NCBI GenBank assembly: GCA_902765005.1
Contig: CACWYB010000011.1
Coordinates: forward strand, 34,197-98,196
DNA length: 64,000 bases
Reading direction: 5' to 3'
DNA from: an uncultured Eubacteriales bacterium
Lineage (GTDB): Bacteria > Bacillota > Clostridia > Christensenellales > CAG-138
Shown: positions 13,035 through 22,184 of the stretch, one piece after another
Numbering within the stretch: the stretch's first letter is position 1
Layout: each line of letters begins with the position of its first letter
The notes under the pieces: model-generated
What the model was told of the DNA's origin: nothing
The model's database searches: none
The model's input: only the letters and a program-made list of their open reading frames with translations
Position numbers and translations under genes: made by a program

Positions 13035-13898
13035 TCACGGGGCGTGCAGCTCCAGATAGGCGGAGGGGGACATGCCGTACTCCTTGCGGAAGGCCCGGTA
13101 GAAGGCGGAGTAGTCCCCAAAGCCCCACTGCCGGTAGGCTTCCCCCACGGGGACGCCCCCCTGGATGGCGTCGCAGCAGGCGGCCAGGCGCTTTTTCAGA
13201 ATGTACTGGTGGACGGACAGGCCCGAGTTCTCCCGGAACAGGTGGACCAGGTAGTATTTGCTCAAATAGAACTGCCGGGCCAGGGCGTCCAGGCTCAGCG
13301 GCTCGTCCAGATGCTCGTCCACATAGTGGGTGATGGCCTCGTAGCGGCTCAGCAGCTCCTTCCGGTTCCGGCGCTGCTCCTGTTCGTGGACGGCCCGGGA
13401 AAGGAACAGCAGCAGATCCGAGATGCACAGGTCGATCATGGGCCCCTTGGCGAACCGGTCCGCGTGGATCTCATCCAGAAGGGTGAAGAGCCGGGTGCGC
13501 AGGGCATTGAAGGTGGGCAGATCGAAGTGATACACATACCGGCCTCTGTCCGCCCGCCGCAGCAGATACCCATACTCGGGGGCCCGGGCCTCCTGAGCCT
13601 GCAAAAAAGCTTTGCTCTGCCAGAACACGAACCGGCGGTAGGGCTTCTCCGGGTCCGACAGGATGGCCCGGTGGTCCATGCCCGGGGGGATAACGATCAC
13701 GTCCCCGGGGCGCAGGGGATAGGCCCGGCCGTCGATCTCCATGGACACGGCCCCCTCCTCAAAGAAATACAGCTCGTAGTAGTCGTGGCTGTGGCTGCCC
13801 ACGCTGTGAAAATGGGTGTCGCTGTAGTAGAACACCTCATAGTCCTCGCTGAGCATATACTGGCGGGTGTTGAACTTGCTGCCCTGGCGTTTCGGCAT
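13035..13898 (-). CDS. AraC family transcriptional regulator
   Basis: 287-residue regulator. The N-terminal cupin-like sensor (about residues 25-110) has SHSHDYYELYFFEEG and the RPGDVIVIPPGMDH signature. The C-terminal AraC/XylS domain (about 190-285) has two helix-turn-helices ending in YGMSPSAYLE. It is divergent from the uronate operon that starts at 14024, with 125 bases between starts, and is most likely its activator responding to a uronate or aldonate. The poor -35 region of the uxuB promoter fits activator dependence. Confidence 0.88.
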   Translation of the reverse strand: MPKRQGSKFNTRQYMLSEDYEVFYYSDTHFHSVGSHSHDYYELYFFEEGAVSMEIDGRAYPLRPGDVIVIPPGMDHRAILSDPEKPYRRFVFWQSKAFLQAQEARAPEYGYLLRRADRGRYVYHFDLPTFNALRTRLFTLLDEIHADRFAKGPMIDLCISDLLLFLSRAVHEQEQRRNRKELLSRYEAITHYVDEHLDEPLSLDALARQFYLSKYYLVHLFRENSGLSVHQYILKKRLAACCDAIQGGVPVGEAYRQWGFGDYSAFYRAFRKEYGMSPSAYLELHAP

Positions 13899-13937
13899 GG
13901 ACGGACCCTCCTCCCTTTGATTAGATTATAGCAACTT

Positions 13938-13993
13938 TTGCAAAGTATGCAACAAAAGAAACAATAGATTGCACCAGAAAAATTCGATACAAT
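13938..13993. promoter_or_regulatory. Divergent control region of uronate operon
   Basis: Contains an inverted repeat TTGCA-5-TGCAA (13938-13952, possible AraC site) and AACAATAGATTGCA (13960-13973), which matches 11 of 14 positions of the LacI-type site proposed for this window. A TACAAT -10 box (13988-13993) has no good -35 box. The LacI-like site covers the -35 position, so either activation or occlusion is possible. Confidence 0.5.
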
Positions 13994-14023
13994 ATTACCA
14001 TAAACCAAGAGGAGGTTTTTTTC

Positions 14024-14875
14024 ATGATGCCCAATGTGTTGAACACCGATTTGACCGGCAAGGTGGCCGTGGTCACCGGCGCCGGCGGCGTGCTCTGCTC
14101 CGCTTTTGCCAAGGTCCTGGCCCGGGCCGGTGCCAAGGTGGCGCTGCTGGATTTGAACTATGAGGCAGCGGACAAGTTTGCTCAGGAGATCGTGGCCGAG
14201 GGCGGCACCGCCAAGGCCTACAAGTGCAACGTGCTGGATAAGGACATCTGCTTTGCCGTGGCGGATGAGGTGGAGAAGGACTTCGGGCCCTGCGACATCC
14301 TTTTGAACGGCGCCGGCGGCAACAATCCCCGGGCCACCACGGACAAGGAGTATTTCGAACTGGGCGACATCGAGGGGGACACCAAGAGCTTTTTCGACCT
14401 GGATAAGTCCGGCGTCGAGTTTGTGTTCAACCTGAACTTCATCGGCACCCTGCTCCCCACCCAGGCCTTTGCCCGGCAGATGGTGGGCCGTGAGGGCTGC
14501 AACATTCTGAACATCAGCTCCATGAACGCCTACACGCCGCTCACCAAGATCCCCGCCTATTCCGGCGCCAAGGCCGCCATCAGCAACTTCACCCAGTGGC
14601 TGGCGGTCCACTTCTCCAAAGTGGGCATCCGGGTCAACGCCATCGCCCCCGGGTTCTTCTCCACGGCCCAGAACGCGGCCCTGCTGTGGAATCCCGACGG
14701 CACCCCCACCGCCCGCACCGGCAAGATCCTGGCCGCCACGCCCATGGGCCGCTTCGGCCAGCCCGAGGAGCTGAACGGCGCCCTGCTGTTCCTCCTCAAC
14801 AATGAGGCCGCGGGCTTCGTCACCGGCGTGACCATCCCCATCGACGGCGGCTTCTCCGCCTACTCCGGCGTCTAA
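14024..14875 (+). CDS. uxuB: SDR-type D-mannonate oxidoreductase (fructuronate reductase)
   Basis: 283-residue short-chain dehydrogenase of the Firmicutes UxuB/YjmF kind. The cofactor loop TGAGGVLCSA (residues 19-28), NAGG-equivalent NGAGG, catalytic Ser166 (NISS), Tyr179 and Lys183 (YSGAK) are present. It would reduce D-fructuronate to D-mannonate with NAD(P)H in the cytoplasm. GGAGG at 14011 is 8 bases from ATG 14024; the second Met codon at 14027 is also possible. It is the first gene of a five-gene operon with kinase, gnd, a LarA-like gene and uxaC, which supports uronate catabolism. Confidence 0.82.
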   Translation: MMPNVLNTDLTGKVAVVTGAGGVLCSAFAKVLARAGAKVALLDLNYEAADKFAQEIVAEGGTAKAYKCNVLDKDICFAVADEVEKDFGPCDILLNGAGGNNPRATTDKEYFELGDIEGDTKSFFDLDKSGVEFVFNLNFIGTLLPTQAFARQMVGREGCNILNISSMNAYTPLTKIPAYSGAKAAISNFTQWLAVHFSKVGIRVNAIAPGFFSTAQNAALLWNPDGTPTARTGKILAATPMGRFGQPEELNGALLFLLNNEAAGFVTGVTIPIDGGFSAYSGV

Positions 14876-14878
14876 ATT

Positions 14879-15127
14879 CCATCGAAAAACACGTTTTTCG
14901 ATGGGGTCAGCTGCGGCTGGGCTTTGCACCGTTGCCTAAAATGCTGCGCATTTTCGGGCGGCAACGGCGAAAGGTGTAGCAAAAACGCTTTGCGTTTTTG
15001 TATCCACACGCGCTATGTCGATGCGAATTGCTGCAGTGCAGCAAATCGCATTGGATTTTACAGATCGGCAGCAGACGTTCTTCCTTTGCAGCTGACCAGC
15101 GGGCGTCTACAACGCCCTTGTGCTGCC
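14879..15127. repeat. Run of five consecutive hairpins between uxuB and the kinase gene
   Basis: This 250-base stretch has no gene. It contains perfect or near-perfect inverted repeats in series: 14879-14904 (CCATCGAAAAAC arms), 14926-14977 (CACCGTTGCC arm with an inner AAAATGC/GCATTTT), 14979-15000 (CAAAAACGC/GCGTTTTTG), about 15019-15051 (ATGCGA, TTGCTGCA arms) and about 15065-15127 (GGCAGCA/TGCTGCC). None is followed by a clear T-run. It may be an RNA-stability element, a decayed mobile repeat or a small structured RNA. Confidence 0.6.
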
Positions 15128-15187
15128 CGCCAAAGATACATTACGTTTTCCAAGTTTGATTGATTTAAGAAAGGCATGTGTATCACT

Positions 15188-16152
15188 ATGAAAGAGAATT
15201 ACAAGTACGCCATCGCCTGCCCCACCAGCATGGGCCTTCGGATCACCCCCCAGGATCGCATGGCGGTCCACAACAGCAACCTGTTCTACCTGCAGGCCAC
15301 CAGCGCCGAGAGCAACGTGCTGAACGTGTCCTCCTCCCTGGGCAAGGAGTGCCTGGTCCTGACCAAGTTCGTGGAGGGCAGCCCCATGGCCGCCTTCATC
15401 AAGGCCCAGCTTCGGGCCCGGAACATCACGATCGGGCCGGCGAGGTGGGCAGGACCCTGTCCGCTTCTGACTTCGACCTCGACCGCATCTTCGGCCAGGA
15501 GGGCGTGGGCATCCTGCATCTCTCCGGCCTCATCGCGGCCATGAGTCCCGAGACCACCCAGTGCTGTTTGGAGCTGGCCCGCGTGGCCAAAAAGTACGGC
15601 ACCCTGGTCAGCTTCGACCTCAACTACCGGGCCACCTTCTGGGCGGGCCGGGAGCAGGAGCTCAAGGCGGCCTTCCATGAGATCGCCTCCGTGACGGACA
15701 TCCTCATCGGCAACGAGGAGGACTTCCAGCTCTGCCTGGGCTTTGCCGGTCCCGAGGCGGGCGGCAAGGAGCTGGGGAGCAAGATCGACCGCTTCAAGGG
15801 CATGATCGAGCAGGTTCGGGAAAAGTACCCCAACGCCCGGGCCTACGCCACCACCCTGCGGCAGGTGGTCTCCGCCAACGAGCACCTCTGGGGCGCCATC
15901 CTCTATTCCGAGGGCAAGTGGTACGTGGAGGAGCCCCGACCCATCCAGGTCATGGACCGGATCGGCGGCGGCGACGGGTTCTCCGGCGGCCTGCTCTACG
16001 CGGTGCTCCAGGGCTGGGATGCCGAGAAGTGGCTCCAGTTCGGCTGGGCTTCCGGCGTGCTGGCGGCCTCCAGCCTGAACGACTATGCCGAGCCCGCCGA
16101 CGAGAAGCAGGTTTGGGACGTCTATAAGGGAAATGCCCGTGTCCAGAGATAA
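15188..16152 (+). pseudogene. PfkB family sugar/aldonate kinase, interrupted by an internal deletion
   Basis: Two frames together encode one PfkB-type kinase. Frame 2 from ATG 15188 gives the N-terminus through RARNIT near 15430; frame 1 resumes at DRAGEVGRTLS (about 15431) and runs to 16152. Relatives have about 35 more residues between these points, so roughly 100 bases, not a multiple of three, appear to be missing. The C-terminal catalytic motif is GGGDGFSGG (GAGD type), and FDLNYRATFW is typical of the family. In this operon it would phosphorylate 2-keto-3-deoxygluconate or gluconate. As sequenced the product is not a functional kinase; assembly error is possible. Confidence 0.75.
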
Positions 16153-16187
16153 AGCAAAGCGCATCAAATAAAGGAGAAGAAGTTTTT

Positions 16188-17639
16188 ATGAAGAAAGCAG
16201 ACATCGGCCTTATCGGCCTGGCCGTCATGGGCGAGAACCTGGTCATGAACATGGAAAGTAAGGGCTTCACCGTGGCCGTCTTCAACCGGACCACCGCCAA
16301 GGTGGACGCCTTCGTGGAAGGCCGTGCCGCCGGTAAGAACATCATCGGCTGCCACAGCCTCCAGGAGCTGGTGGACAACCTGGAAAAGCCCCGGAAGGTC
16401 TTCATGATGGTCAAGGCCGGCAGCGCCGTGGACGACATGATCGACAAGCTCCTGCCCCTCTTGGAGGACGGCGACATCCTCATCGACGGCGGCAACAGCC
16501 ACTTCCCCGACACCATCCGGCGGACGGAGTATGTGGAGAGCAAGGGCAAGCTGTATGTGGGCACCGGCGTGTCCGGCGGCGAAGAGGGCGCCCTGAAAGG
16601 CCCCTCCATGATGCCCGGTGGCTCCCCTGCGGCCTGGCCCTATGTGAAGCCCATCTTCCAGGCCATCTGCGCCAAGGTGGAGGACGGCTCCCCCTGCTGC
16701 GACTGGGTGGGCGAGAACGGCGCGGGCCACTTTGTGAAGATGGTCCACAACGGCATCGAGTACGGCGACATGCAGCTCATCTGCGAGGCCTATCAGCTCA
16801 TGCGTGACCTGCTGGGCCTCTCCTACGAGGAGATGCACGACATCTTCACCAAGTGGAACGAGACCGAGCTTGATTCCTACCTCATCGAGATCACCCGGGA
16901 CATCCTGGGCTACAAGGACGAGGACGGCTCCCCCCTGGTGGAGCACATACTGGACACCGCGGGCCAGAAGGGCACCGGCAAGTGGACCGGCATCGCGGCC
17001 CTGGACGAGGGCGTGCCCCTGACGCTCATCGGCGAGGCCGTGTTCGCCCGCTGCCTCTCCGCCATGAAGGAGGAGCGGGTGGAGGCCGCCAAGACCTTCG
17101 GCCGGCAGGTGCCCGCCTTCACCGGCGATAAGGAGGCCTTCATCGAGGCCATCCGGCAAGCCCTCTTTGCCTCCAAGATCATCTCCTACGCCCAGGGCTA
17201 CACCCTCATGCGCACCGCTGCCCAGCATTACGGCTGGAACCTCAATTACGGTGGCATCGCCCTCATGTGGCGGGGCGGCTGCATCATCCGCAGCGTCTTC
17301 CTGGGCAAGATCAAGGAAGCCTACGACAAGAACCCGGCTCTCAGCAATCTGCTCCTGGACCCCTACTTCAAGGGGACCATCGAGAAGCTGGTGCCGTCTT
17401 GGCGCACCGTGGCGGCGGCGGCCCTCACCTACGGCGTGCCCGCCCCGGCCATGACCTCGGCTCTCAGCTACTTTGACGGCTACACCACCGAGCGCCTGCC
17501 CGCGAACCTCCTGCAGGCCCAGCGGGACTACTTCGGCGCCCACACCTACGAGCGGCTGGACGCGCCTCGGGGCCAGTTCTTCCACACCAACTGGACCGGC
17601 CATGGCGGCAACACCGCTGCGACAACGTACAACGCGTAA
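16188..17639 (+). CDS. gndA: 6-phosphogluconate dehydrogenase, decarboxylating
   Basis: 483-residue long-form Gnd. The Rossmann loop GLIGLAVMGENL (residues 7-18), the NRTTAKVD motif favouring NADP, the substrate motif GVSGGEEGALKGPS and the catalytic KMVHNGIEYGDMQ with Lys and Asn/Glu are all intact, as is the C-terminal FHTNWTG tail that enters the partner's active site. It oxidises and decarboxylates 6-phosphogluconate to ribulose 5-phosphate. Its place inside a uronate operon is unusual and points to gluconate as an intermediate. Confidence 0.95.
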   Translation: MKKADIGLIGLAVMGENLVMNMESKGFTVAVFNRTTAKVDAFVEGRAAGKNIIGCHSLQELVDNLEKPRKVFMMVKAGSAVDDMIDKLLPLLEDGDILIDGGNSHFPDTIRRTEYVESKGKLYVGTGVSGGEEGALKGPSMMPGGSPAAWPYVKPIFQAICAKVEDGSPCCDWVGENGAGHFVKMVHNGIEYGDMQLICEAYQLMRDLLGLSYEEMHDIFTKWNETELDSYLIEITRDILGYKDEDGSPLVEHILDTAGQKGTGKWTGIAALDEGVPLTLIGEAVFARCLSAMKEERVEAAKTFGRQVPAFTGDKEAFIEAIRQALFASKIISYAQGYTLMRTAAQHYGWNLNYGGIALMWRGGCIIRSVFLGKIKEAYDKNPALSNLLLDPYFKGTIEKLVPSWRTVAAAALTYGVPAPAMTSALSYFDGYTTERLPANLLQAQRDYFGAHTYERLDAPRGQFFHTNWTGHGGNTAATTYNA

Positions 17640-17651
17640 GCGGAGCCGTTT

Positions 17652-18938
17652 ATGAACGACATCTATTGCATCGCAAAAACCGACGCGGGTCTCTCCCAGG
17701 ACGAGATCCGCGTCGCCCTGCTCCAAAGCCTCTCCGGCCGCAAGCTCAACAAGGTCCTGATCCTGCCTCCGGATTTCACCCGCTTCCATTCCAACGCGGG
17801 CTTCATCACCAACGTGTACTACCACGCCCTCACGGATGCCGGCGTTCAGGTGGACATCCTGCCCGCCCTGGGCACCCATGTGCCCGTCAGTGAGGAGCAG
17901 TGGAACAAGATGTTCGGCGACATCCCCTATGAGCGGATGCTGGTCCACAACTGGCGGACGGATGTGGTGAAGATCGGCCAGATTCCGGCGGACTTTGTCT
18001 CCGAGATCACCGAGGGCCTGTGGACGGAGCCGGTGGCCGCGGAGGTGAACCGGCGGGTCATGGACGAGAGCTACGACCTGATCATCTCCCCGGGCCAGGT
18101 GGTGCCCCATGAGGTCATCGGCATGGCCAACCACGCCAAGAACCTGTTCGTGGGCGTGGGCGGGAGCGAGATGATCAACTCCTCCCACATGATCGGCGCG
18201 GTCTACGGCATGGAGCGGATGATGGGCAAGGACTTCACCCCCGTCCGCCGGATCTTCGACTACGGCCTGGAGCACTTTTTGAAGGACAGGCCCATCCTCT
18301 TTGCCCTGACGGTGACCACCGCCCCTGGCGGCGTCATCCACACCCACGGCCTGTTCATCGGCGAAGGCCGCAGCTGCCTCACGGAGGCGGTGAAGCTGGC
18401 CCAGCAGAAGAACATCGACTTTGTGCCCCATGGCCTCAAAAAGTGCGTGGTGTACCTGGACCCCTCGGAGTTCAAGAGCACCTGGCTGGGCAACAAGGCC
18501 GTCTACCGCACCCGCATGGCCATGGCCGACGGCGGCGAGCTCATCGTGCTGGCTCCCGGCGTGGAACGCTTCGGGGAGGACAACCAGGTGGATAAGCTCA
18601 TCCGCAAGTATGGTTATCGGGGCCGGCTGAACACGCTGGAACAGTTCAAGAAGCCCGAGAACCAGGATCTGCGGGACAACATGGGCGCCGCCGCCCACCT
18701 GATCCACGGCTCCTCCGACGGCCGGTTTACCATCACCTATGCGGTGAAGGACATCACCAAGGAGGAGATCGAGGGCGTGGGCTTTGCCGCCGCGGATTAC
18801 GACGAGATGGCCAGGAAATACGACCCCCAAAAGCTCGCCTACGGCTTCAACACCGTGGATGGGGAGGAGGTCTACTTCATCCCCAACCCGGCTTTGGGCC
18901 TTTGGATCAACCGGGAACGCTTTGAAAAGGAGAATTGA
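17652..18938 (+). CDS. LarA-type nickel-dependent epimerase (probable D-mannonate/D-gluconate epimerase)
   Basis: 428-residue LarA-superfamily protein. Spacing of the key residues matches lactate racemase: His153 (PHEVIG), Lys163 ten residues on (HAKN) and His179 sixteen after that (SSH), plus GTH at 74-76 and His99. These residues hold the nickel-pincer nucleotide cofactor and do hydride and proton transfer in LarA. Some LarA homologues are reported to act on aldonates. Between gnd and uxaC, and in an operon that makes D-mannonate, 2-epimerisation to D-gluconate is the best fit (inference). The cofactor genes larB, larC and larE are not in this window. Confidence 0.75.
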   Translation: MNDIYCIAKTDAGLSQDEIRVALLQSLSGRKLNKVLILPPDFTRFHSNAGFITNVYYHALTDAGVQVDILPALGTHVPVSEEQWNKMFGDIPYERMLVHNWRTDVVKIGQIPADFVSEITEGLWTEPVAAEVNRRVMDESYDLIISPGQVVPHEVIGMANHAKNLFVGVGGSEMINSSHMIGAVYGMERMMGKDFTPVRRIFDYGLEHFLKDRPILFALTVTTAPGGVIHTHGLFIGEGRSCLTEAVKLAQQKNIDFVPHGLKKCVVYLDPSEFKSTWLGNKAVYRTRMAMADGGELIVLAPGVERFGEDNQVDKLIRKYGYRGRLNTLEQFKKPENQDLRDNMGAAAHLIHGSSDGRFTITYAVKDITKEEIEGVGFAAADYDEMARKYDPQKLAYGFNTVDGEEVYFIPNPALGLWINRERFEKEN

Positions 18939-18941
18939 GAA

Positions 18942-20324
18942 ATGAAGCCCTTTTTGGACAAGGATTTTCTGCTGGAAACCCCTACCGCGCAGCATCTGTT
19001 CCACGACATCGCGGACAAGATGCCCATCATCGACTACCACTGCCACCTGATCCCCCGGGAGATCTATGAGGACCGGCAGTTTGAGAACATCACCCAGGTT
19101 TGGCTGGGGGGCGACCACTACAAGTGGCGGCTCATGCGCTCCTTCGGCGTGGAGGAGAAGTACATCACCGGCGACGCCTCCGATCGGGAGAAGTTCCAGA
19201 AGTGGGCCGAGACCCTGTCCTTGGCCATCGGCAACCCCCTGTATCACTGGAGCCATCTGGAGCTGCGGCGGTTCTTCGGCTATGAGGGCATCCTCAACGG
19301 CGACACGGCCGAGGAAGTGTGGAACCTGTGCAACGAGAAGCTTCGGCAGCCTGATTTCTCCGCCCGGAACCTGATCGTCAAGTCCAACGTGAAGGTGGTC
19401 TGCACCACGGACGATCCGGCGGACACCCTGGAGTGGCATCAGAAGATCGCCGGGGACAACTTCCCCGTGAAGGTGTTGCCCAGCTTCCGCCCGGACAAGG
19501 CCATGAACCTGGATAAGCCCGACTATATCGACTATCTTGCCAAGCTGGGCGCGCCCAAGACCTACGCCGAGCTGGTGAAGGCGCTGCAGGAGCGGCTCCG
19601 CTTCTTCGTGTCCATGGGCTGCCGGGTCAGCGACCACGCGGTGGAGTCCGTGCCCTATGCCCCCGCCACCGAGGCGGAGCTGGAAGCCATTTTCTCTAAG
19701 CGGCTCTCCGGCCAGATCCCCACGGCGCTGGAGATCAAGCAGTTTAAGACCGGGCTGCTCCTCATGCTGGGCCGCTGCTACGCCAAGTACGGCATCGCCA
19801 TGCAGCTCCATTTCGGCTGCATCCGGGACAACAACCAGTACATCTACCGTCTCCTGGGCCCCGACACCGGCGTGGATTCCATCGGCGATCCCTCTCCATT
19901 GAAAGAGCTGGTAGGCTTCCTCAACGCCCTGGCCGAGACCAACGAGCTGCCCAAGACCATCCTCTACTCCCTGAACCCCACGGAGAACGCGGCCATCGGC
20001 ACCATCATCGGCTGCTTCCAGGGGCCGGAGGCCCGGGGCAAGCTCCAGCACGGCAGCGCCTGGTGGTTCAACGACCATGAGAAGGGCATGCTGGACCAGA
20101 TGACCACCCTGGCTTCAGAGGGGCATCTGGCCACCTTCGTGGGCATGCTGACCGACTCTCGGAGCTTCCTCTCCTATACCCGGCACGAGTACTTCCGCCG
20201 GTTGCTCTGCAATCTCATCGGCGGCTGGGTGGAGAAAGGGGAGTACCCCAACGACGAAAAGGCCCTCAAGACCATCGTGGAGGGCATCTGCTACAACAAC
20301 GCCAAGGCGTACTTTGGGTTTTAA
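18942..20324 (+). CDS. uxaC: Glucuronate/galacturonate isomerase
   Basis: 460-residue uronate isomerase of the amidohydrolase-like UxaC family. Visible motifs are IDYHCHL (metal-binding HxH), VCTTDDPADTLEWH, the LPSFRPDKAMN segment and AWWFNDHEKGMLDQM near the C-terminus. It interconverts D-glucuronate with D-fructuronate and D-galacturonate with D-tagaturonate. The start is three bases after the stop of the LarA-like gene, behind AAGGAGAATTGAGA. It is the last gene of the operon, followed by hairpin repeat B. Confidence 0.96.
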   Translation: MKPFLDKDFLLETPTAQHLFHDIADKMPIIDYHCHLIPREIYEDRQFENITQVWLGGDHYKWRLMRSFGVEEKYITGDASDREKFQKWAETLSLAIGNPLYHWSHLELRRFFGYEGILNGDTAEEVWNLCNEKLRQPDFSARNLIVKSNVKVVCTTDDPADTLEWHQKIAGDNFPVKVLPSFRPDKAMNLDKPDYIDYLAKLGAPKTYAELVKALQERLRFFVSMGCRVSDHAVESVPYAPATEAELEAIFSKRLSGQIPTALEIKQFKTGLLLMLGRCYAKYGIAMQLHFGCIRDNNQYIYRLLGPDTGVDSIGDPSPLKELVGFLNALAETNELPKTILYSLNPTENAAIGTIIGCFQGPEARGKLQHGSAWWFNDHEKGMLDQMTTLASEGHLATFVGMLTDSRSFLSYTRHEYFRRLLCNLIGGWVEKGEYPNDEKALKTIVEGICYNNAKAYFGF

Positions 20325-20493: not shown

Positions 20494-20946
20494 TTAAACC
20501 GGCACCTTCACAACGATCTTCTTCACCGCCATGGCCTCGCCGGCCAGGCACCGGGGTTTGTGGGCGTCCTCCGGCGCGAAGATCACGTAGTCTCCGCCCC
20601 GCAGCAGCACCTGCCCGAAGAGGGCCGGGTCCTCATAGAAGGTCACGTCGTTGCCGGCATCGTAGGGCGTCTTCACCTGCAGCCCCTGCCGGGTGCAGGC
20701 CCCCAGCAGCTCCTCTCCCTCCACCAGATACTGGATATCGAAGAACTTTTCGTGGGTCTCAAAGGACAGGGTCTCCGCCGCCATGGTGGTGTAGTGCTGC
20801 ACACTGGCCCGCACACCGTCCCCCAGCTCGATCCACCCCTCGGGCAGCTCGCCCAGATCCTCCCGTCGCAAAAACGCGAAGGCGACCTGAAACTTCTTCG
20901 CCGTCAGATCATATTTATACTCATTTCCAATGCTCCCAAATTCCAT
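20494..20946 (-). CDS. YhcH/YjgK/YiaL family protein
   Basis: 150-residue beta-sandwich protein of the YhcH/YiaL (DUF386, EbgC-like) family, recognised by ETHEKFFDIQYLVEGEE and the C-terminal FAPEDAHKPRC, whose His and Glu residues form a metal site in the family. Members accompany sialic acid, uronate and beta-galactoside genes and are thought to handle sugar anomers or aldonates. It lies convergent to the uxaC operon and upstream (same strand) of the MFS gene at 21015-22184. Confidence 0.82.
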   Translation of the reverse strand: MEFGSIGNEYKYDLTAKKFQVAFAFLRREDLGELPEGWIELGDGVRASVQHYTTMAAETLSFETHEKFFDIQYLVEGEELLGACTRQGLQVKTPYDAGNDVTFYEDPALFGQVLLRGGDYVIFAPEDAHKPRCLAGEAMAVKKIVVKVPV

Positions 20947-21014
20947 GGCCTTTCACTCCATTTCTATAGTTTTTTGCGATAATGTAGGATTTCTCAGATA
21001 ACGCACCGCGCGGG

Positions 21015-22184
21015 TCAACGGGGTCGCACCTCATTGCTCCTGGGCGAAGGGAACAGCATGGCTATGGCGGACGCAAGATAGAAGAGTAAGCCCACCAAGA
21101 AGGAGAAGCGCTCATACTCACTGCCGGCCAGATGCCGCAGCAGGCTCAGGATAAAGGCGGAGCCAAAGCTGCCGATGGAGGAAATAATGTGATACAGTGA
21201 AAGAGAGGCCGCCCGCAACTCCGGCTTTAGCGGCACGCCCAAATAGTAGGTGAACGTGGGGTTCAACAGCCCGTATCCCATGCCGAAAACAGCGGCGGAA
21301 CACAGGAGCCCGAGGGCGCTTTTGCTCAGGATCAAGAGCAGATACCCGGCGGCGCAGAACCCAAAGCCGACGGTGAAGGTCCGCTTGGAGCAAGCCCGAT
21401 GGATGCGATAGAACAGATATCCGCCCATCACACCGGTGCCGGTGCAGATGGAAAGAATGATGGCGGTCATGGTGGCGCTGCCAAACTGGTTGCGTAGCAC
21501 GATCCCGGACATCTCCGTGACGAAGGGATAGAAGAACACCATGTGGGCCGCATAAAACAGGCTCCAGCCCACCACATGCCAGGTGAACACTTGCCTGAGG
21601 TCCAGGCGCTTTTTGTCTGCGTCCGAGAGCCTGTCCGGCTCCGGCAGCAGAAGCAGCACAATAATCAGCACGGGAAGCACCGCCAGATACGCCAGGAAGG
21701 GCATCCGCCAGCTGTAGCTGCACAGATACCCGCCCAGGAGCTGGAAGATGACGGCGCCGATGTTGGTGGACATGGCGTTGCGCCCCAGCTGGCGGGGCAC
21801 ATCGTCACCGGAAAAAAGGGACAGGACCAAGGTGTTGATGATGGGAGCAACAAGTCCCGTGCCAATACCCAGCACGGCCCGTCCCACCAGGATCTGCCCC
21901 ACGCTCTTCGCAAAGACAGGCAGAATCCCTCCCAGGAAGGTGATGACAAGCCCAAGTGCGGTCAGTGTCCGAAACCGAACCTTCCGTCCGACGATCATAC
22001 CGGATAGGATGGTGCAGGGAACGGCCGTCAGGCTGGAAAGGGTGGCGATGGACGCGATGGCTGTGGAAGGCGCTTCCGGAAAGTTGCGGGAGATCGTGGC
22101 CAGGGCAGGGGAGGTGGCGGAAGCGGCCAGGTTGATGAAGGACATGGCCAGGATCGCTAAGATGGCTTTTAGCTTTTTGTTCAT
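21015..22184 (-). CDS. MFS transporter
   Basis: 389-residue major facilitator with 12 hydrophobic segments. The cytoplasmic loop 2 motif has the form GMIVGRKVRFR, and helix 5 carries the GTGLVAPIINTLVLS segment of drug/solute antiporters. N-terminus: MNKKLKAILAILAMSFINLAASATSPAL without a cleavable signal. It is probably the last gene of a minus-strand unit with the cyclase and PanE-like genes, though decayed sequence lies between. The substrate is probably an organic acid made or used by this locus (inference). Confidence 0.85.
   Translation of the reverse strand: MNKKLKAILAILAMSFINLAASATSPALATISRNFPEAPSTAIASIATLSSLTAVPCTILSGMIVGRKVRFRTLTALGLVITFLGGILPVFAKSVGQILVGRAVLGIGTGLVAPIINTLVLSLFSGDDVPRQLGRNAMSTNIGAVIFQLLGGYLCSYSWRMPFLAYLAVLPVLIIVLLLLPEPDRLSDADKKRLDLRQVFTWHVVGWSLFYAAHMVFFYPFVTEMSGIVLRNQFGSATMTAIILSICTGTGVMGGYLFYRIHRACSKRTFTVGFGFCAAGYLLLILSKSALGLLCSAAVFGMGYGLLNPTFTYYLGVPLKPELRAASLSLYHIISSIGSFGSAFILSLLRHLAGSEYERFSFLVGLLFYLASAIAMLFPSPRSNEVRPR

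Follow-up and report, generated by a model that had tools for sequence, protein, structure and literature searches.

The window, the whole 64,000-nucleotide stretch of DNA that we analysed, contains an operon running from an SDR-type reductase gene through a PfkB kinase, gnd and a larA homologue to uxaC, with an AraC-family regulator gene divergent from it (Table 1). The AraC match is likewise divergent at the same-genus loci L041, L042, L043, L046 and L047. No operon protein gave a match of its own to UxuA or KDPG aldolase; the operon kinase matched a model of an aldolase-kinase fusion, in its kinase portion. This agrees with the preliminary description of the locus as a uronate operon lacking both enzymes. 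The gene content and order given there also stood, on profile matches and coordinates, except that the PfkB kinase gene proved not to be intact.

Table 1. The uronate operon and its divergent regulator gene, in positions of the window
Feature	Position	Strand	Remarks
AraC-family regulator	13035..13898	-	Divergent from operon; Pfam HTH_18, AraC_binding, Cupin_2
SDR-type fructuronate reductase / D-mannonate oxidoreductase (UxuB function)	14024..14875	+	NF006132, 436 bits (cut-off 281)
PfkB sugar kinase, interrupted	15176..16152	+	103 nt missing at 15427/15428, plus frameshift
Gnd, 6-phosphogluconate dehydrogenase, decarboxylating	16188..17639	+	TIGR00873, 764 bits (cut-off 427)
LarA homologue, group 18 (NPN_18_hexonate), proposed hexonate C2-epimerase	17652..18938	+	NF052594, 623 (622.6) bits (cut-off 500)
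UxaC, uronate isomerase	18942..20324	+	PF02614, 673 bits; NF002794, 608 bits (cut-off 387)

The kinase frame, for which 15188 is the alternative start, is broken at the site of the missing segment, and the remainder of the gene lies in another frame. The segment is absent relative to all six same-genus relatives compared by blastn (the contigs of the other three carriers in the genus stop short of the kinase), and its loss together with the frameshift rules out an intact gene. We concluded that the operon kinase is broken in this genome, so that here a route through it would either depend on some other kinase or be on its way out, provided that the assembly is correct at this point. That the gap arose in assembly or binning, within an otherwise ordinary group-18 operon, is a real possibility, although we lean slightly away from it: to genome G044 the sequences on the two sides of the gap show 98% and 91% identity, and every other gene of the operon is open, but the break is clean at both sides.

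The LarA homologue passes the cut-off of NF052594 and is thus a group-18 member by score; that family's name carries the word “putative,” and its link to gnd, the operon kinase and UxaC was counted here. All three residues that had been singled out in the preliminary description (His153, Lys163 and His179) are present, and D41, R44, H76, H153, E154, V155, K163, H179, W278 and K282 are invariant in 28 of 28 aligned group-18 proteins, which come from carriers with and without the genes for biosynthesis of the nickel-pincer nucleotide cofactor (NPN). Through an alignment with 4NAR and the residues given in PMC7583248, D41, R44, H76, H153, K163, H179 and K282 are the equivalents of LarA D72, R75, H108, H174, K184, H200 and K298, with D41, H76 and K282 placed by alignment plus motif. 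The substrate signature of groups 18 to 20 is an E-V/S loop, a W in helix 11 and an A/V in helix 14; E154 and V155 (an E-V loop) and W278 are present, and invariant. In an AF2 model of the protein (pLDDT 89.5), the top 18 PDB matches are all LarA-type and the closest solved fold is 4NAR, the structure of GntE2 (TM 0.80, 24% identity over the fold alignment). The active site and predicted fold of the homologue best match the D-gluconate 2-epimerase GntE2. PMC7583248 reports that D-gluconate is formed from D-mannonate by groups 19 and 20, and hypothesises a hexonate substrate for group 18. Counting against a mannonate epimerase, it also gives a KM of 120 mM for mannonate with the group-19 enzyme, and its authors doubt that mannonate is the natural substrate of that enzyme.

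We then asked how the genes are distributed. UxaC occurs in 29 of 103 genomes of the family; group-18 LarA accompanies it in 27 of these, and UxuA in the remaining 2. It is thus found in 27 of 31 LarA carriers versus 2 of 72 noncarriers (Fisher p = 2e-18, kinship ignored, as in all our Fisher tests), and the distribution of group-18 LarA is near-complementary to that of UxuA within this one family. No match to UxuA was found in any of the 12 genomes of the genus, including the source genome (77% complete, 45 contigs). Co-occurrence of this LarA with uxaC and, in the genus, a lack of UxuA matches, for both of which the preliminary description had advised looking, were thus observed. That description had also named uxuA and kdgA coregulated elsewhere in the genome as refuting its reading; a KDPG aldolase gene does lie on another contig, beside a KDG-kinase-like gene, but without uxuA. 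KDPG aldolase had no match in 9 of the 12 genomes of the genus.

The gene neighborhoods gave a similar picture. Among the 18 of 30 family loci whose two flanks each extend for 4 kb or more, Gnd was near larA in 16, the kinase in 15, and the SDR and UxaC in 14 each. Among the 38 named loci with such flanks, taken from the best 80 of 589 relatives and so biased toward near ones, Gnd was found in 31, the same kinase in 29 and UxuA in 1; at least six contigs, recognised by their matching lengths, are common to the named collection and the family set (L099, L128, L143, L144, L155 and L166). Thus the kinase gene, gnd and larA are neighbors at most loci, as a conserved core, and since the arrangement recurs across genera, it is not due to chance. 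Genome G068, of the same family, has a matching operon in the order uxuA-SDR-kdgA-kinase-uxaC, in which uxuA-kdgA-kdgK-like genes take the place of kinase-gnd-larA around the same type of SDR and UxaC. It is, within the family, the version that belongs to the canonical isomerase/Entner-Doudoroff route (UxaC, UxuB, UxuA, KdgK and KdgA), which shares UxaC and an SDR mannonate oxidoreductase with the route considered here but differs from it in UxuA, which had no match in the genus.

Other loci count against such a route. UxuA occurs together with group-18 LarA in genomes G001 and G014 and near larA in 4 of the best 80 of 589 loci (L109, L113, L133 and L168). Gnd is not nearby in 7 of the 38 named loci (from the best 80 of 589) and 2 of the 18 family loci, and at L032 an oxidoreductase-like gene precedes larA in its place. 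Finally, no UxaC was detected in 4 of the 31 carriers in the family, two of which are at least 92% complete.

Given this gene content, its conservation, the active-site residues, the predicted fold and the distribution of UxuA, we think it somewhat better than an even bet that the operon serves D-glucuronate catabolism via gluconate to ribulose 5-phosphate; the catalytic steps, the order of epimerase before kinase and the use of NPN are what we infer from that evidence. UxaC would convert D-glucuronate to fructuronate and the SDR would reduce fructuronate to D-mannonate. The group-18 LarA homologue would then invert C2, by the hidden-hydride mechanism of LarA, to yield D-gluconate, which the PfkB kinase of the operon's own clade would phosphorylate to 6-phosphogluconate. 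Gnd would form ribulose 5-phosphate from this and give back the reducing equivalent used by the SDR, so that LarA, kinase and Gnd would replace mannonate dehydratase and the Entner-Doudoroff half of the canonical pathway. The mannonate-to-gluconate bypass of the preliminary description thus gains from the co-occurrence, the lack of UxuA matches in the genus and the conserved core and loses from the missing NPN genes (see below), the broken kinase and the kdgA elsewhere in the genome.

The identity of the kinase also counts against this reading, because the enzyme is KDG-kinase-like: for the kinase of an intact relative, the best PDB match is the KDG kinase 2AFB (E 5e-34). If it acted on 2-keto-3-deoxygluconate, the operon would be a partial Entner-Doudoroff set with its other genes elsewhere, and Gnd and LarA would serve external gluconate. 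The KDPG aldolase in the source genome would fit that arrangement, as would the many distant loci (among the best 80 of 589) at which kinase-gnd-larA is present but no UxaC lies in the sequence covered. However, that aldolase gene adjoins its own KdgK-like gene, UxuA has no match in the genus and KDPG aldolase none in most of it, and UxaC is tied to group-18 LarA genome-wide. Moreover, the operon kinases form a clade apart from KdgK, with a mean identity of 28% to KdgK and 69% among themselves, making an ordinary KdgK unlikely even though the nearest structures are nonetheless KDG kinases. We consider a KDG substrate very improbable. In genome G225, an FGGY kinase gene lies between larA and gnd, and the best model for its product is gluconokinase (240 bits, under the cut-off of 649); its position suggests a gluconate kinase step.

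The two central steps could also run in the opposite order, in which case the PfkB protein would phosphorylate mannonate and the LarA homologue would be a 6-phosphomannonate 2-epimerase that gives 6-phosphogluconate directly. The operon's pairing of a kinase with an epimerase accords with this order. Extracts of Lactobacillus suebicus showed both activities, to which PMC6978723 assigns no genes; when ATP was left out they formed no gluconate from mannonate, and the paper further points to gntE homologues among Lactobacillus. At 18 of 110 loci (80 of these being the best of 589) a HAD phosphatase gene adjoins larA or separates it from gnd, as might be expected if intermediates or side products were phosphorylated. 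On the other hand, groups 19 and 20, whose substrate region bears the same signature, use free mannonate (PMC7583248), and the gluconokinase-like protein of G225 better fits gluconate. We therefore rate phosphorylation before epimerisation as unlikely, at perhaps one chance in four, and favor gluconate as the intermediate.

If the LarA homologue uses NPN, the source of the cofactor is a puzzle. Profile searches found none of LarB, LarC and LarE over the cut-off in any of the 12 genomes of the genus, which for this genus is the lack of nickel-pincer biosynthesis genes that the preliminary description had said would refute its proposal. All three proteins are present in only 5 of the 31 carriers in the family, and LarB is no commoner in group-18 carriers than in noncarriers, either in the family (5/31 versus 12/72) or in an evenly drawn sample of the class (16/60 versus 134/331). 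The model does detect LarB, in 17 of 103 family and 150 of 391 class genomes. Incomplete assembly is unlikely to be the cause, because the genus includes two genomes that are 97% complete (G039, without group-18 LarA, and G045, with it) and, of the 32 class carriers with a completeness rating of 95% or more, only 9 have LarB; genome G295, a single contig rated 100% complete, has kinase-gnd-larA and no LarB. A divergent LarE in the source genome was ruled out, its 45-bit match being GMP synthase, and the sub-cut-off LarB matches (29 to 49 bits) cover a region that we take to be shared with PurE. Nor is the shortage of LarB special to group 18, since it is also absent from 34 of the 37 genomes in the family that have some other strong match to LarA (>100 bits to PF09861).

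These absences would be accounted for if group-18 LarA here worked without NPN, with another bound cofactor or none, and perhaps catalysed a different hexonate reaction. We doubt this strongly: the residues that correspond to those binding NPN or acting in catalysis do not vary, whether or not a carrier has the biosynthesis genes, and the nearest fold is GntE2. There is also no support in the genus for decay of larA for want of cofactor; the median dN/dS is 0.19 (28 pairs, from 8 of the 10 carriers in the genus), showing that larA is under purifying selection, and the catalytic residues are kept. Either NPN is scavenged, or a biosynthetic route or a cofactor outside LarB-LarE-LarC exists. We tentatively suggest, at slightly less than even confidence, that a lineage near the gut and rumen Clostridia relies for its use of uronates on a nickel-pincer enzyme and lacks the LarB-LarE-LarC route to the cofactor, with NPN or a precursor shared in the manner of a vitamin, or with an unrecognised route or a replacement cofactor.

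A uronate-to-gluconate route is not in itself new (PMC7583248 and PMC6978723). The hexuronate route of Thermotoga maritima with GntE2, proposed by Rodionova 2012 (as described in those papers), has the same logic, from uronate through mannonate and gluconate to the pentose phosphate pathway, and an epimerase of the same superfamily; GntE2 (LarA group 20) was assayed, according to PMC7583248, and its structure 4NAR is the closest fold to the protein studied here. By family, UxaC, SDR, LarA and Gnd of the Thermotoga-type set are all present at our locus. However, the window's LarA belongs to group 18, not 20, and its kinase is PfkB-type, of the KDG-kinase kind, interrupted and with a putative substrate. 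Control searches of T. maritima matched the UxuA, LarC and LarB models, none of which had a match over the cut-off in our genus. The galacturonate route of L. suebicus (PMC6978723) likewise leads from the UxaC and UxuB reactions to 6-phosphogluconate and on to Gnd, is redox neutral to ribulose 5-phosphate and has no UxuA, KdgK or KdgA in the proteome, but there mannonate is phosphorylated before epimerisation. The novelty lies in the group-18 form, whose KDG-kinase-like proteins make up a clade of their own, and in the puzzle of the cofactor genes.

If the proposed route is correct, many animal-gut Clostridia would channel uronic acids to pentose phosphates and CO2 and not through the Entner-Doudoroff half, in a pathway that would be redox neutral up to ribulose 5-phosphate and that would escape annotation relying on UxuA and KdgA. 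Uronic acids come from pectin, hemicellulose, glycosaminoglycans and glucuronides. The decoupling of LarA from LarB, LarC and LarE, moreover, makes the question of NPN exchange between microbes testable in a single LarB-less isolate.

The locus in the window comprises six genes, encoding an AraC-type regulator, an SDR, a PfkB kinase, Gnd, a LarA homologue and UxaC (see table), on a 98-kb contig of an assembly of 2.4 Mb in 45 contigs rated 77% complete. The NCBIfam model that identifies the LarA homologue is named "nickel-dependent putative hexonate epimerase," a name that places it in LarA group 18. The preliminary description listed these genes correctly but overlooked that the kinase gene is interrupted: 103 nt is missing at the break, followed by a frameshift, and the stretch is present in all six same-genus relatives examined (the contigs of the other three genus carriers stop before the kinase). 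The lost stretch holds W97, G98, R100, H101 and Q102 (numbering of the kinase at locus L041), which are kept in at least 97% of operon kinases. All other genes of the operon are open, and the break may be genuine or come from faulty assembly. Just downstream, the minus strand carries genes for a YhcH/YjgK-type protein (DUF386) and an MFS transporter (window 20494-22184), which in G044 (L041) flank the operon at its other end, past the AraC gene.

Coordinates of the operon genes in the window and of two phosphatase genes at related loci
Feature	Position	Strand	Remarks
AraC-type regulator, divergent	13035-13898	minus	
SDR-type D-mannonate oxidoreductase	14024-14875		
PfkB kinase, interrupted	15176-16152		break at 15427/15428
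6-phosphogluconate dehydrogenase (Gnd)	16188-17639		
LarA homologue	17652-18938		NF052594, 623 bits vs cut-off 500
Uronate isomerase UxaC	18942-20324		
Cof-type HAD phosphatase	L100 9165-10001		
Cof-type HAD phosphatase	L131 9118-9996		

The LarA homologue aligns with Thermotoga maritima GntE2 (PDB 4NAR; E 8e-34), and all 28 aligned proteins share D41, R44, H76, H153, E154, V155, K163, H179, W278 and K282. By the 4NAR alignment and the residue list in PMC7583248, this set includes the seven positions for binding of the nickel-pincer nucleotide (NPN) and catalysis, together with the E-V loop and the W common to groups 18, 19 and 20. An AlphaFold2 model (pLDDT 89.5) also matches 4NAR best (TM 0.80), ahead of the malate and lactate racemases, and within the genus the gene is under purifying selection (median dN/dS 0.19; 28 pairs from 8 of 10 carriers). 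PMC7583248 assigns D-mannonate-to-D-gluconate conversion to groups 19 and 20, the group 19 enzyme having a KM of 120 mM and a substrate doubted by its authors, and hypothesizes a hexonate substrate for group 18. Conversion of mannonate to gluconate by the group-18 enzyme is therefore a good inference from the conserved residues, the modeled fold and the activity of groups 19 and 20.

Judged from sequence, the likeliest working of the operon would be a route in which uronate is converted to fructuronate and then mannonate, which would be epimerized to gluconate, phosphorylated to 6-phosphogluconate and converted to ribulose 5-phosphate. The order of epimerase and kinase may, however, be reversed: in extracts of L. 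suebicus, as described in PMC6978723, mannonate is phosphorylated first and 6-phosphomannonate then epimerized, by genes not identified. The sequence is compatible with either order and does not decide between them; if the group-18 enzyme were the L. suebicus epimerase, a missing gene would be named. The closest PDB match of an intact relative of the window kinase is 2-keto-3-deoxygluconate kinase 2AFB (E 5e-34), and 56 operon kinases, compared with 10 KDG kinases (KdgK), form a separate clade, with a mean identity of 69% among themselves (minimum 43%) but 28% to KdgK. In genome G225 (L183 10378-13258), an FGGY kinase gene lies between close-lying larA and gnd, a position often held by the PfkB kinase, which was not found near larA or gnd there. 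The best model for the FGGY kinase is gluconokinase, with a score below that model's cut-off, which weakly favors gluconate as the kinase substrate. At 18 of 110 loci (30 from the family and the best 80 of 589 relatives in the named collection), a Cof-type HAD phosphatase gene directly precedes larA or separates it from gnd (17 loci) or comes just downstream of larA (L146); it may clear a phosphorylated side product.

Genes for the kinase, Gnd, LarA, SDR and UxaC recur in 30 family loci in varying order. Counting genes close by on the same strand, at loci with at least 4 kb on both sides, we found Gnd in 16, the kinase in 15, and SDR and UxaC each in 14 of 18 family loci. The corresponding numbers for 38 loci from the best 80 of 589 relatives were Gnd 31, kinase 29, SDR 14, UxaC 12 and UxuA 1. 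Kinase-gnd-larA thus forms the conserved core, and UxaC commonly lies at some other site. Gnd was not found nearby in 2 of the 18 and 7 of the 38 (the latter from the best 80 of 589); at L032, an oxidoreductase-like gene precedes larA in place of gnd.

Among 103 family genomes, group-18 LarA is present in 31 (29 over the cut-off and 2 truncated, with 5 weak-match-only genomes dropped), UxaC in 29 and UxuA (mannonate dehydratase) in 4. UxaC is present in 27 of 31 LarA carriers versus 2 of 72 noncarriers (Fisher p = 2e-18, kinship ignored); it was undetected in four carriers, two of which have a completeness of at least 92%. The two UxaC genomes lacking LarA, G027 and G068, have UxuA; UxuA and LarA occur together in G001 and G014. 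The gene order of the G068 operon is uxuA, SDR (NF006132, 422 bits), kdgA, KdgK-like kinase, uxaC, so that the same SDR type and UxaC are joined by uxuA, kdgA and kdgK instead of kinase-gnd-larA. No other single observation argues as strongly as this exchange that the kinase, Gnd and LarA take the place of the dehydratase branch. The expected co-occurrence of LarA with gnd and uxaC was thus borne out, but UxuA lies near group-18 LarA at four of the best 80 of 589 loci (L109, L113, L133 and L168), and the two branches are therefore not exclusive everywhere.

The preliminary description had also proposed that the Entner-Doudoroff route is bypassed, to be contradicted by co-regulated uxuA and kdgA elsewhere in the genome. 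UxuA had no match in the window's own genome (77% complete) or in any of 12 genus genomes, but KDPG aldolase occurs in 3 of the 12. In the window's own genome it lies on another contig, directly adjoining a KDG-kinase-like gene (L061 8240-9904, G000:C2; NF041633, 475 bits, under the fusion model's cut-off of 700); the lower half of the Entner-Doudoroff route therefore exists there, at a separate locus. A nearby ORF is, by its N-terminal sequence, presumably pectin hydrolase-like.

Many record titles among the best 80 of 589 are of metagenome-assembled genomes from ruminant guts. Genes for proteins with 58-80% identity to the window LarA lie, within that set, on contigs labeled Verrucomicrobia, Kiritimatiellae, Victivallales and Spirochaetes/Sphaerochaeta, and may reflect horizontal transfer or misbinning. 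The copies 71-80% identical under the first three labels (L105, L110, L118, L120, L124, L129, L132, L135-L137, L140 and L141) have the kinase nearby in 0 of 12 loci and Gnd in 2 (L132 and L141), several flanks being short.

Absence of NPN biosynthesis genes, named beforehand as counting against the epimerase reading, is what we found in the genus: none of its 12 genomes has LarB, LarC or LarE over the cut-off, and these 12 include G045, which is 97% complete and has the operon. A weak LarE match in the window's own genome was rejected as GMP synthase. In the family, the 17 of 103 genomes with LarB over the cut-off are also those with LarE over it, and all three proteins are found in 5 of 31 carriers; LarB is found in 5 of 31 carriers versus 12 of 72 noncarriers (p = 1). 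Among 391 genomes of the class, LarB is less frequent in carriers (16 of 60 versus 134 of 331; p = 0.04), with 9 of 32 among carriers rated at least 95% complete. The LarB search found none in G295, which consists of one contig, is rated 100% complete and has kinase-gnd-larA. LarB is mostly absent alongside other LarA groups too (present in 3 of 37 family genomes). LarB and LarE over the cut-off are missing from 25 of 42 family genomes that have LarC (PF01969) (including G017-G023, G025, G026, G058 and G062), and PF09861 had no match in G017-G023, G025 or G026; LarC might serve a different function in these genomes, or load nickel into a precursor taken up from outside. The genus has a second LarA (L184 611-7045, G045:C4; 560 bits with the LarAH6 malate racemase model, whose cut-off is 500), again in a genome with no LarB, LarC or LarE over the cut-off. 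It is preceded by genes for inositol 2-dehydrogenase, a phosphoglycerate-kinase-like protein and the N-terminal half of transketolase, and a further preceding gene is presumably the other half. The opposite case, LarB, LarC and LarE without LarA, is on record in PMC11796402; within a partial coverage of the literature, we recognized no paper on LarA without biosynthesis genes or on NPN salvage.

The pathway is a variant of an idea already known: according to PMC6978723 and PMC7583248, a uronate-to-gluconate route was put forward for T. maritima in 2012. What is new is the version with group-18 LarA and the PfkB clade, a distribution in one family that is nearly complementary to that of UxuA, and the lack of the cofactor genes, which is the more interesting part.
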